Positions 7,877-55,333 of a stretch of 64,000 nt of DNA are shown here, piece by piece. The notes under the pieces are model-generated. The model did not search any database and was not told the origin of the DNA. It saw only the letters and a program-made list of their open reading frames with translations. Both the position numbers and the translations under genes were made by a program. Origin of the DNA: Arthrobacter sp. PM3 (GTDB lineage: Bacteria; Actinomycetota; Actinomycetes; Actinomycetales; Micrococcaceae). Position 1 is the first letter of the stretch; every line of letters begins with the position of its first letter. The stretch spans positions 469,397-533,396 of the forward strand of contig NZ_CP022314.1 in assembly GCF_003352915.1 (NCBI RefSeq), given 5' to 3'.

Positions 7877-7954
7877 ACGCACGAATTCGCCGGAAGCGTG
7901 CCCGTTCGCCGGAAGGTTCCGGCGAACGGGCAGCTTTCCGGCGAATTCTTGCGT
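7877..7954. repeat. Nested palindromic intergenic element, copy A
   Basis: Two inverted repeats, one inside the other. The outer arm GAATTCGCCGGAA (7883-7895) pairs perfectly with 7936-7948, and five more outward positions pair after one mismatch. The inner arm GCCCGTTCGCCGGAA (7900-7914) pairs perfectly with 7917-7931 around a 2-nt GG centre. The element fills the gap between the convergent GntR and Gfo/Idh genes and can act as a bidirectional terminator, but the same core recurs at 23.1, 52.8 and 54.4 kb, so it is an interspersed repeat family. Confidence 0.85.
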
Positions 7955-23055: not shown

Positions 23056-23122
23056 GCCGTTTCGCCGGAAACCCCCGGGATCGCCGGAAGCTCCCGGCGA
23101 TCCCAGGCGCGTCCGGCGACTT
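23056..23122. repeat. Nested palindromic intergenic element, copy B
   Basis: Inner perfect stem GGGATCGCCGG (23077-23087) with 23094-23104; outer stem TCGCCGGA (23062-23069) with 23112-23119. It lies between the convergent epimerase and membrane-protein genes and shares the TCGCCGGA/TCCGGCGA core and the stem-within-stem plan with copies A, C and D. Confidence 0.75.
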
Positions 23123-52732: not shown

Positions 52733-53476
52733 CTAGCGGCCCTTCCCGGCCGCGAACTCGCCGGAAGCCGACCGATTCGCCGTAAGTTTACGGCGAGCCC
52801 TTGCCGTTCCGGCGATTTCGGCCAAGCGGGCGCGGCGGCGGATGACGTACTCGGCCACGGCAACGTTGATCAGCCACGCGGCGCCGAGGAGCGCTGCCCG
52901 GTCGGCTCATCGGGCGTACCCACCAGCAGCATCCACGGCAGCCCGGTCAGCGCCTGCGTCCCCGCGGCGACGCCGATCGCATAGCCGCGCGTCATCCATG
53001 CCCCGTGCCGCACGAAGTCCCGGCGCATGATGGCGGCTATTCCCAGGACGATGCTCGCCGCCATGGCCGAGCCAAAGACGAGCCGCAGGACAAAAAGCGC
53101 CGGCCCGTCCCCCGGCGGCAGCGGATAGAAGAGGGTCATCCACAATCCGGACAGGGCCGCCAGCAGGCCGGCCGGCGCCAGGACGCGGCCGGCGATGCGG
53201 TGCCAGCCGCGGCGGCCGCGCAGGGAGGGGAGGAACTGGAATGCCCCCAGCAGGCTGTAGGCGGTGACGCTGACAATGTGCGCCACTACCGGCACGGGCG
53301 AGGCGAAGAACCGGGCGTTCTGCGGGGTGACGGCGGCGCCGCCGGTCAGTTCGGTCAGCCGGGCCGCCCCCGCAATCACGGGGATGAGGCTGAGCAGGAT
53401 CAGTCCGGCGGCCACGGGCCACTGGGGGCGCCCGGCGGACGCGGATCGCGGGGGCGCTGCTGGTGTGTGTTGTCAC
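52733..53476 (-). pseudogene. DUF2306 membrane protein gene, broken by two apparent frameshifts
   Basis: Three reading frames together rebuild one DUF2306 protein. Frame one starts at GTG 53476 (VTTHTSSAPAIRVRR, ribosome site AAGGACACCAAG). The main frame gives VAAGLILLSLIPVIAGAARL, VVAHIVSVTAYSLLGAFQFL, RRGWHRIAGRVLAPAGLLAA and RHGAWMTRGYAIGVAAGTQA. The last gives AWLINVAVAEYVIRRRARLA. The shifts fall near 53422-53440 (next to a G5 run) and near 52890-52902. The final 30 codons read through palindromic element C, so the original 3' end seems replaced. Either decay or sequencing errors can explain the shifts. Confidence 0.7.
52745..52820. repeat. Nested palindromic element, copy C
   Basis: Outer stem TCGCCGGAA (52758-52766) with 52807-52815, inner stem TCGCCGTAA (52777-52785) with 52788-52796 around GT. 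The left 23 nt, from 52745, are identical to the left end of copy D (54410-54432). It forms the last codons of the DUF2306 frame. Confidence 0.8.
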
Positions 53477-53622: not shown

Positions 53623-54339
53623 ATGACCCAGCAAGCCGAGCGGATGCGGCGAATCCCGCTGAGTCGGGACCGCGTGCTGAGGGCCGCCGTCGCACTGGCC
53701 GATGAGGTGGGGATTGAGGCGCTGAGCATGCGCCGGCTCGCCCAGGAGCTCGGGGTCGTGCCCATGGCGCTCTACAAGCACGTTGCCGGCAAGGAGGAAC
53801 TCCTCGACGCCATGGTGGACGCCCTGGTCAGCGAGATCGATCCCCCCGTCCCCGGCGCCGGCTGGAGGGACGCCGTTCGGCTGCGGGTGCTCTCGGCCCG
53901 GGCGGCACTCCTGCGCCACCCCTGGGCCCGGCAGGTCCTGGAATCGCGCACCAACAAGACGCCGGCGGTCCTGGGCTACATGGATTCCTTCATCGGCATG
54001 TTCCTGGCCGGCGGCTTCTCCGTGGACCTGACCCACCACGTCATGCATGCCCTGGGCAGCCGGATGTGGGGGTTTACCCAGGAATTGTTTGACGACGCCG
54101 CCGCCTCGGCGGAGCAGCCGGCGGATTTTCCGCCCGAGGCACAGGCCGCCATGCTCCGTGAGATGGCCGAGCGGTATCCGAACATCCTGAAGGTCGCCGC
54201 CGCCTCCGCGCACGAGGACTCCGTGGTGGGGCGGGGCTGCGACGACCAGTTCGAGTTCGAATTCGCGCTCGATCTGCTCCTGGCGGGCTTTGAACGCCTG
54301 CACCGGCAGCACTGGACCTCGACGCCGAAAAGTCTCTGA
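53623..54339 (+). CDS. TetR-family regulator (TetR/AcrR with TetR_C-type ligand domain)
   Basis: A 238-residue repressor: helix-turn-helix ALSMRRLAQELGVVPMALYK within the first 55 residues and a C-terminal domain with MRREMAERYPN-type sequence (MLREMAERYPNILKVAA) and FEFEFALDLLLAGFERLH, both typical of the TetR_C_1 (tetracycline-repressor-like) group. It is divergent from the broken DUF2306 gene, with two palindromes between. ATG 53623 has AAAGG upstream. Without a working DUF2306 gene its target may be only itself. Confidence 0.9.
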   Translation: MTQQAERMRRIPLSRDRVLRAAVALADEVGIEALSMRRLAQELGVVPMALYKHVAGKEELLDAMVDALVSEIDPPVPGAGWRDAVRLRVLSARAALLRHPWARQVLESRTNKTPAVLGYMDSFIGMFLAGGFSVDLTHHVMHALGSRMWGFTQELFDDAAASAEQPADFPPEAQAAMLREMAERYPNILKVAAASAHEDSVVGRGCDDQFEFEFALDLLLAGFERLHRQHWTSTPKSL

Positions 54340-54357
54340 GGCCGGCCGACACCACTG

Positions 54358-54560
54358 CGCCGGCCATGCCCTGACCGCCTACTCCTCCAGGAACCCGGTC
54401 CCGCCCGCGCCCGGCCGCGAACTCGCCGGAAGCTCCACAAATCGCCGGAAGTTTACGGCGAACCGGTGCCTTTCCGGCGGCGAGTTCGACGGCGGGCGAT
54501 TTCGACGCCGGAGAACACCTCGACGCCGGCAGAGCCCTGACCCCTTACTCCTCCAGGAAC
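54358..54560. repeat. Duplicated 3' end of the hydrolase gene bracketing element D
   Basis: The last bases of the alpha/beta hydrolase gene (about 54523-54560, including its stop and the actcctccaggaacc run) recur with few changes at about 54358-54395. Palindromic element D lies between the copies. The outer copy is a remnant: it still reads two Glu codons and a stop but leads nowhere. Confidence 0.7.
54410..54492. repeat. Nested palindromic element, copy D
   Basis: Outer stem CGAACTCGCCGGAA (54418-54431) with 54472-54488, the right arm carrying a 3-nt insert; inner stem TCGCCGGAA (54442-54450) with TTACGGCGA (54453-54461), one mismatch. It shares 23 identical nt with copy C at its left end and lies between the convergent TetR and hydrolase genes. 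Confidence 0.8.
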
Positions 54561-55333
54561 CGCAGCAGGTACGGGACGGTGGTCCGCATGGCCCGCAGGT
54601 CGCCGCCGCTGGCGGCCAACTCGCCGAGGTAGTCGCCGTGGGTGCCCGGCACGATCATCAGGCGCGCCCCGGGAATGATGCGGGACATCCGCACGGCGTG
54701 GTCGGCGCTGACGACGTCCCGGTCGGCGCACAGCACCAGAGTGCGGGCCGTGATTTGGCGCAGGTCCTCGTCCTGCCAGCCGCGAAAGGTCAGGATCCGC
54801 TGCCGGTCCAGCTCGAACATCCGCTCGAGATGCCCGGGCTCGGGATTGAGTGCCCGGTCCGCGTCTTTGTACGCCTCCGGCATGTCGTCAAGGGTGGCCG
54901 CCGCCATGCCGTCCCAGAACTCCTCGCCCACCGCGTCCCGGCCGGCGAAGGTGGAGGCGGCAATCAGGCACCGGACCGACGCCGGGTACCGCATGGCCAG
55001 CGCCAGCGCGGTATGGCCCCCGGCACTGAAGCCGAGCACGTCCACGGTGTCCAGGCCGAGTTCGTCCATCACGGCCTTGACGTCGTCGGCGGAGTTTTCG
55101 GCGGTGAGCGGGCGGCCTGTTGCCGCGGTCCGGCCGTGGCCTTCCTCCTCGACGGCGATCACCTGCAGGCTCTCGGCCAGCAGGGCCGGGATGAGGCCCG
55201 CGAAGTTGGTCCCGATGCTCGAGCCGCCGCCGGGAATCAGCAGCAGCGGAGGCTCGCCGGCCCGCGCGTGGCCGTGGACCTCGTAGTACATCCGGACGTC
55301 GCCATTGGCCGCGTAACCGTGCGTGAAAGTCAC
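54545..55333 (-). CDS. Alpha/beta-fold hydrolase
   Basis: A 262-residue hydrolase: LLLIPGGGSSIGTNFAGLIP (oxyanion region), nucleophile elbow VDVLGFSAGGHTALALAM with the catalytic Ser, Asp in LVLCADRDVVSADHAVRM and His in VPGTHGDYLGELAASGGD. The triad is complete. Substrate unknown; esterases, lactonases and C-C hydrolases share this layout. Start GTG 55333 with AGGAT. The gene's 3' end is partly duplicated beyond element D. Confidence 0.9.
   Translation of the reverse strand: MTFTHGYAANGDVRMYYEVHGHARAGEPPLLLIPGGGSSIGTNFAGLIPALLAESLQVIAVEEEGHGRTAATGRPLTAENSADDVKAVMDELGLDTVDVLGFSAGGHTALALAMRYPASVRCLIAASTFAGRDAVGEEFWDGMAAATLDDMPEAYKDADRALNPEPGHLERMFELDRQRILTFRGWQDEDLRQITARTLVLCADRDVVSADHAVRMSRIIPGARLMIVPGTHGDYLGELAASGGDLRAMRTTVPYLLRFLEE

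Follow-up and report, generated by a model that had tools for sequence, protein, structure and literature searches.

The 64,000-nucleotide stretch of the Arthrobacter sp. PM3 genome analysed here (NZ_CP022314.1, positions 469,397 to 533,396; hereafter the window) holds four copies of a 58-bp palindromic element, and these elements are probably non-autonomous palindromic repeats that belong to a nuclease gene located elsewhere in the same 4.35-Mb genome (G000). That gene, itself bracketed by elements, encodes a protein with an AbiEi-like and a Vsr-like part; elements and gene would make up a pair resembling a REPtron, i.e., REP/REPIN palindromes together with a RAYT (REP-associated tyrosine transposase), with an unrelated nuclease in the place of the RAYT. 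At the level of sequence, this reading is based on the architecture, the bracketing of the gene, the matching of elements to their own gene in four of seven genomes, an association of copy number with the gene, a slow change of the repeat units, and near-identical copies in different flanks; binding, cutting, and mobilisation of the elements by the enzyme, as well as a benefit to the host, are inferred. Palindromic repeats are common in bacterial genomes. RAYTs are the best-studied enzyme partners of such repeats, and some repeat families are without an assigned partner, according to passages of PMC3733652.

The element follows the plan TCGCCGGAA-N10-TCGCCGGAA-N2-TTCCGGCGA-N10-TTCCGGCGA, namely, four 9-bp units, two direct and two inverted, set at a step of 19 bp. 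Spacing is nearly fixed among 209 distinct copies from 160 loci: a linker length of 10 nt is kept by 208 on the left and by 202 on the right, and 204 have a 2-nt centre, so that the similarity extends beyond the short core, the opposite of what the initial annotation had named as an outcome that would speak against a family. The reversed-sequence control for the pattern gave no matches. A nested hairpin is present in the predicted fold of roughly 90% of 392 strands, and the mean folding energy of the element is -50.7 kcal/mol, vs -28.8 kcal/mol for mononucleotide shuffles. In some copies, three direct 19-bp monomers stand on one side (L129:2447-2509, L007), i.e., the monomer number can change. 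The copies in the window, together with a repeat around one of them, are:

7887-7944: copy A, 58-bp four-unit palindrome with nearly fully paired linkers, between a GntR/FCD regulator gene (plus strand) and a GFO/IDH/MocA oxidoreductase gene (minus strand)
23062-23119: copy B, 58-bp four-unit palindrome, between an aldose 1-epimerase gene (plus strand) and a DUF4386 gene (minus strand)
52758-52815: copy C, 58-bp four-unit palindrome with inner units TCGCCGTAA/TTACGGCGA, between a mycothiol-S-transferase gene and a DUF2306 gene, both on the minus strand
54423-54480: copy D, 58-bp four-unit palindrome, between a TetR gene (plus strand) and an alpha/beta-hydrolase gene (minus strand)
54338-54395 and 54504-54561 (whole span 54338-54561): 58-nt imperfect direct repeat (79% identity) around copy D

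All four palindromes listed by the initial annotation are thus present as 58-bp cores, which follow the unit plan with few base departures and adjoin genes of ordinary function. The left end that copies C and D were said to have in common is indeed seen, and, as A, B, and D lie in convergent gaps and C in a tandem one, three copies do lie between convergent genes. A relaxed core pattern has five matches in the window against 0.58 expected in shuffles, none of 100 shuffles reaching five; the fifth match, beyond copies A-D, lies elsewhere and carries three mismatches. RNA-fold z-scores are -11.4 and -11.7 for the two strands of copy A, -5.2 for B, -4.9 for C, and -2.8 for D, and no Rfam family is found in the window at gathering scores. 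In the related genome G019, a single copy of the 58-nt sequence flanking copy D is seen by eye, with the element absent. Only 2 of 189 copies have such a long flanking direct repeat, and the second case, L129, is a local tandem duplication.

The covariance-model search that had been proposed was performed with a model (R1) built from 18 own-genome copies, and it found the element in 22 places of G000 at E<=1e-3 (44 matches when both strands are counted). An insertion sequence with an integrase-core (rve) protein (L050:2310-3840; G000:C1 ~2044308-2045842) interrupts one more copy, between its units 2 and 3. R1 matches 35 of 59 genomes, namely, 35 of the 37 of the genus (the misses are G013 and G024) and none of 22 from other families of the order, which supports the proposal of a REP/MITE-like family of extragenic palindromes. 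In a draw of 295 genomes of the family Micrococcaceae, with stricter filters and at most 15 candidates scored per genome, 28 genomes in 7 of 32 genera had a match. A scan of named genomes returned 111 stretches, and the titles of the 80 listed name Arthrobacter, Pseudarthrobacter, or Paenarthrobacter in every case; since this set required three near-exact units, unit conservation in it, including the comparison of units with linkers, is biased upward. The same plan is built from different units in a few further genera of the Micrococcaceae, e.g., mostly TCGC(T/C)AGTA inner units and AGTCTCGGAT-like linkers in G083, and outer units TCGACGGAA in G101; within the genus, most units of G163 are TCGCGGGA(A/G) and TCGCTGGA(A/G). 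Two other identities were rejected. The exact element pattern has no match in viral_contigs, which argues against a viral origin, and a DNA uptake sequence is not indicated, as 41 of 45 exact units in 166 kb have another within 60 bp, with four alone; lone units are not enriched, the eight control 9-mers occurring 0-5 times.

The partner of the elements was expected by the initial annotation to be a RAYT; the enzyme gene found is another one, which that annotation did not foresee:

G000:C1:2039774-2040715, minus strand: candidate partner gene, 314 codons with the stop, outside the window, with an element on each side

A structure model of its protein combines a part like AbiEi antitoxins with a C-terminal fold like that of the homing endonuclease I-Bth0305I and Vsr, so that one protein would join an AbiEi-like N-terminal DNA-binding part to a Vsr/homing-endonuclease-like C-terminal domain, as far as the predicted fold tells. 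The likeness to homing endonucleases is a resemblance in predicted fold. The PADLOC AbiEi models fit the N-terminal part (residues 21-214, E 9.5e-13), and the catalytic-type residues of the C-terminal domain (D, E-x-D-G, and K), the acidic and lysine residues that go with the predicted Vsr fold, are invariant in 23 homologs. At E<=0.01, MTES_1575 matches 20 and DUF559 matches 10 of the 23 aligned homologs; in the one member shown, the MTES_1575 match does not reach the curated cut-off. A DUF1814 toxin gene was not found beside the nuclease gene in G000, where the neighbours are a Vut_1 transporter and a LacI regulator.

A homolog of this gene at E<=1e-5, distant paralogs included, is present in all 40 genomes searched, and 21 of the 30 best homolog loci are flanked on each side by an R1 element. 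In 21 loci, the median distance from the upstream element core to the homolog match is 104 nt, and a second copy follows the 3' edge of the match at a median of 21 nt. A sequence-blind palindrome scan found other palindromes on both sides at six more loci (L370, L371, L372, L375, L378, L381), giving 27 of 30; one of the L375 palindromes is ~315 nt away. No clear palindrome pair was found at L374, L376, and L379, the last of which is cut by a contig end. Palindromes scoring at least 22/34 occur on 44 of 58 homolog flanks but on only 1 of 60 control-gene sides, and that one is the element itself in G000. At the same threshold, 39 in-family paralog loci (~28-60% identity) have palindromes on both sides in 15 cases, on one side in 17, and on neither in 7.

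The pattern reaches further into the phylum, with homologs at E<=1e-8 in 58 of 246 genomes. Similarity between left and right flanks of at least 27/40 was seen at 27 of 29 close homologs, and at up to 32 of 39 paralog and 17 of 26 phylum loci, the latter two being upper bounds because repeats that do not look palindromic also score (L412, L437, L446); the controls gave 1/29, 2/23, and 9/94. At the phylum loci L422 and L427, the two flanks match at 40/40 positions. A stricter palindrome scan scored both sides in 8 of 28 phylum loci vs 0 of 52 controls, and for loci of at least 3.3 kb in 8 of 26 phylum, 14 of 29 close-homolog, and 11 of 39 paralog loci (controls 0/29 and 0/23). In G101, the gene that lies between the two palindromes is a divergent one, with an AbiEi_4 match and an EFDG..K motif. 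The distant paralog of G000 at 1974794 has a palindrome on one side, of which no dispersed copies were found in the own-genome pieces examined. Altogether, these genes may well represent an undescribed actinobacteria-wide class of enzyme and repeat, in which each AbiEi-like/Vsr-like gene is bracketed by its own long palindrome and the nuclease spreads single palindromes in a homing-like manner, as a counterpart of the REPtron without a RAYT.

If the elements belong to the bracketed gene, dispersed copies should resemble the palindromes that flank the gene of the same genome. This was compared for 11 of the 22 own copies and for a selection of copies from other genomes (L337, L341, and L350 left out), and the best match was to the own gene-flanking palindromes for 39 of 40 copies in four genomes (G000 11/11, G083 15/16, G101 5/5, G163 8/8). 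Copy number points the same way, with a median of 14 copy matches in genomes with the cognate gene (n=14) vs 4 in those without (n=12), and the best copies also score better where the gene is present (p=0.003); for the copy matches p is 8e-5, or 5e-4 with the borderline genome G018 moved, all values being uncorrected for the relatedness of the genomes.

Many copies lie at orthologous positions, and near-identical copies occur in different flanks. In 13 orthologous pairs with a flank identity of at least 92%, linkers differ at ~24% and units at ~5% of positions, and the script value of the linker/unit change ratio is 4.3 for pairs with 1-9 linker differences. The slower change of the units suggests constraint in place, with the qualification that intact units are favoured by the procedure through which loci were collected. 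Copies are also gained and lost, and orthologous sites are occupied in a patchy manner, e.g., G019 has no copy D; one presence count at loci in relatives is biased, those loci having been chosen for having elements. The covariation of inner-stem bases, from which it had been argued that the folded form matters, proved weaker than stated: it is lacking for units within G000, present among the best matches of other genomes, and steadiest in linkers. In 16 copies of G000, paired units match no better than under independence (z -0.8 for the outer and 0.3 for the inner ones, vs 2.4 for linkers), and the variable inner position 7 is uncompensated in 99 named copies (57 matched vs 56.8 expected, in a set drawn with a pattern free at that position). 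Units do covary in the 23 best covariance-model matches of other genomes (z 4.9 and 4.8), which were picked by a model that rewards pairing. Perfectly complementary linkers occur in 8 of 99 named copies vs 0.2 expected and could stem from palindrome perfection by template switching.

In the mechanism proposed, the AbiEi-like part would recognise the array of 9-bp units with its direct pair, its inverted pair, and its 19-bp step, and the nuclease part would cut at, or next to, either the palindrome or its target. The element may then be copied by repair or strand switching, often to sites close by, as in homing. Insertions would survive in 3' intergenic gaps, where the hairpin may be harmless or may act as a two-way 3'-end structure.

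Several points weigh against a nuclease-and-repeat pair. Matching to the own gene fails in three genomes (G209 4/10, G120 0/8, G194 0/9; 4 of 27 copies together), possibly through a register shift or through paralogs. Each of the 12 genomes scored as having no cognate gene still has 0-10 copy matches, and the genomes behind the copy-number test are related. The weaker sides of L371, L378, and L381 score 24-26 of 36, and the best scores at individual control loci span these values (20-27). In one gene gap, the element is present in 2 of 30 genomes, three of the gaps being too short to hold it. A consistent short target-site duplication was not found in 196 copies (2- to 9-mers at many offsets); the best of the many combinations tried was a 2-mer with unequal offsets, at 28 vs 12 expected. 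Furthermore, nucleases like Vsr are not known to carry out strand transfer by themselves, and the bracketing palindromes could be an operator and a terminator.

There are two main alternatives, both unlikely overall. The first is that the elements are only bidirectional 3'-end structures, terminators or stabilisers of mRNA 3' ends, kept by selection, with two at the nuclease gene as terminators that it needs. Gene positions, for which genes were called by an own codon-usage script, fit this: elements are enriched in convergent and depleted in divergent gaps, the 105 named-genome copies lying in 30 convergent, 58 tandem, and 8 divergent gaps, at a locus edge (7), or inside a called gene (2), and the 23 own-genome copies in 10 convergent, 11 tandem, and 2 divergent gaps, against 24 convergent, 104 tandem, and 73 divergent element-free gaps of at least 100 bp. 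The element stands a median of 34-38 nt from the stop codon in convergent gaps, and 32-40 nt from the upstream stop vs 60-90 nt from the downstream start in tandem ones. The strong, GC-rich predicted hairpin agrees with such a role, as does the observation, by eye, that in relatives lacking the element a ACGACGGCGGG...CCCGCCGTCGT-type hairpin can fill the same gap (L125, L179, L111, L167; L011). However, the T fractions downstream of the elements reveal no U-tract after the hairpin, and terminator prediction has no match at copy A. Moreover, unit sequence and spacing are conserved beyond what pairing alone would call for, one palindrome lies upstream of the nuclease gene, and the gene-specific palindromes around homologs, like the genome-specific matching, are left unexplained.

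The second, about equally doubtful, is that the palindromes are operators bound by an AbiEi-like regulator, so that the flanking copies autoregulate the gene and the dispersed ones form a regulon or chromosome-organising sites, with no mobility. Family members are described in PMC7319586 as antitoxins that bind inverted repeats in their own promoters; the upstream element core of the 21 homolog loci is placed accordingly, and four conserved, strictly spaced sites are in keeping with an array for DNA binding. Promoter-like sequences stand beside some copies, e.g., a TTGACA-type sequence that adjoins the element in L008 and its orthologs L089, L107, L124, L134, and L148 (by eye; the L089 stretch ends within it). 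Yet most dispersed copies stand closer to a stop than to a start codon, those after stop codons are not accounted for by autoregulation alone, and the second copy past the 3' edge of the homologs, the patchy presence at orthologous sites, and the invariance of catalytic-type residues do not suit an operator. That the elements form a classical REP/REPIN or MITE family, mobilised by a RAYT or by the transposase of an insertion sequence, is very improbable: they are extragenic palindromes with 3'-end copies and local near-identical copies, but the Y1 transposase domain PF01797 is absent from G000 and present in 1 of 121 genus genomes (G032, two matches), in a search that was positive in 5 of 14 control genomes, the predicted RAYT partner was thus not found, no conserved GTAG or CGTC end tetranucleotide appears in the column frequencies of 99 copies with 20-nt flanks, target duplications are not consistent, and the bracketed gene is of another fold.

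If the nuclease-and-repeat reading is true, palindrome families without a RAYT, such as the CGTC REPs, may have nuclease partners as well, a large set of uncharacterised AbiEi/DUF559-type genes would gain a testable role, and a second, independent route to extragenic palindromes in bacteria is suggested. Among the open-licence papers listed in searches on AbiEi, DUF559, MTES_1575, Vsr, and RAYT, none showed a link between nucleases of this kind and palindromic repeats, and among the matches listed for the 9-mers of the element units, none concerns REP-like repeats or Arthrobacter by title (one is on Salmonella CRISPR typing). A table of the RepRanger study (PMC12306157) includes Arthrobacter livingstonensis, and short palindromes have apparently been counted in the genus there.

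Among known systems, AbiEi antitoxins of the type IV AbiE system share with the present protein the PADLOC and fold match of the N-terminal part and, according to PMC7319586, family members bind inverted repeats; they differ in that a Vsr-like C-terminal nuclease domain is present here and in the toxin neighbour, which was not found in G000. Vsr, I-Bth0305I-type endonucleases, and the MTES_1575/DUF559 domains are alike in the predicted C-terminal fold and in Pfam matches, and the MTES_1575 nuclease differs in having been described within a large multidomain protein (passages of PMC3710099). CGTC-tagged REPs are likewise prokaryotic palindromic repeat families without an assigned transposase, but passages of PMC3733652 assign no enzyme to them, whereas a bracketed gene is found here, and the sequences differ. 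The closest likeness is to REP/REPIN-RAYT, with its extragenic palindromes, an enzyme gene flanked by cognate palindromes, and co-evolution of enzyme and repeat (PMC8266576; passages of PMC3116915 and PMC3733652). The present family has multiple extragenic copies too, with 22 in G000 and only 2 of 105 named copies inside a called gene, and its enzyme gene is flanked on both sides at 27 of 30 loci; here, however, the enzyme is an AbiEi-like and Vsr-like endonuclease and not an HUH/Y1 transposase, and the element is a 58-bp array of four units in 19-bp steps. It looks like a new kind of enzyme-and-repeat pair, similar to the known REP repeats but unrelated to them.
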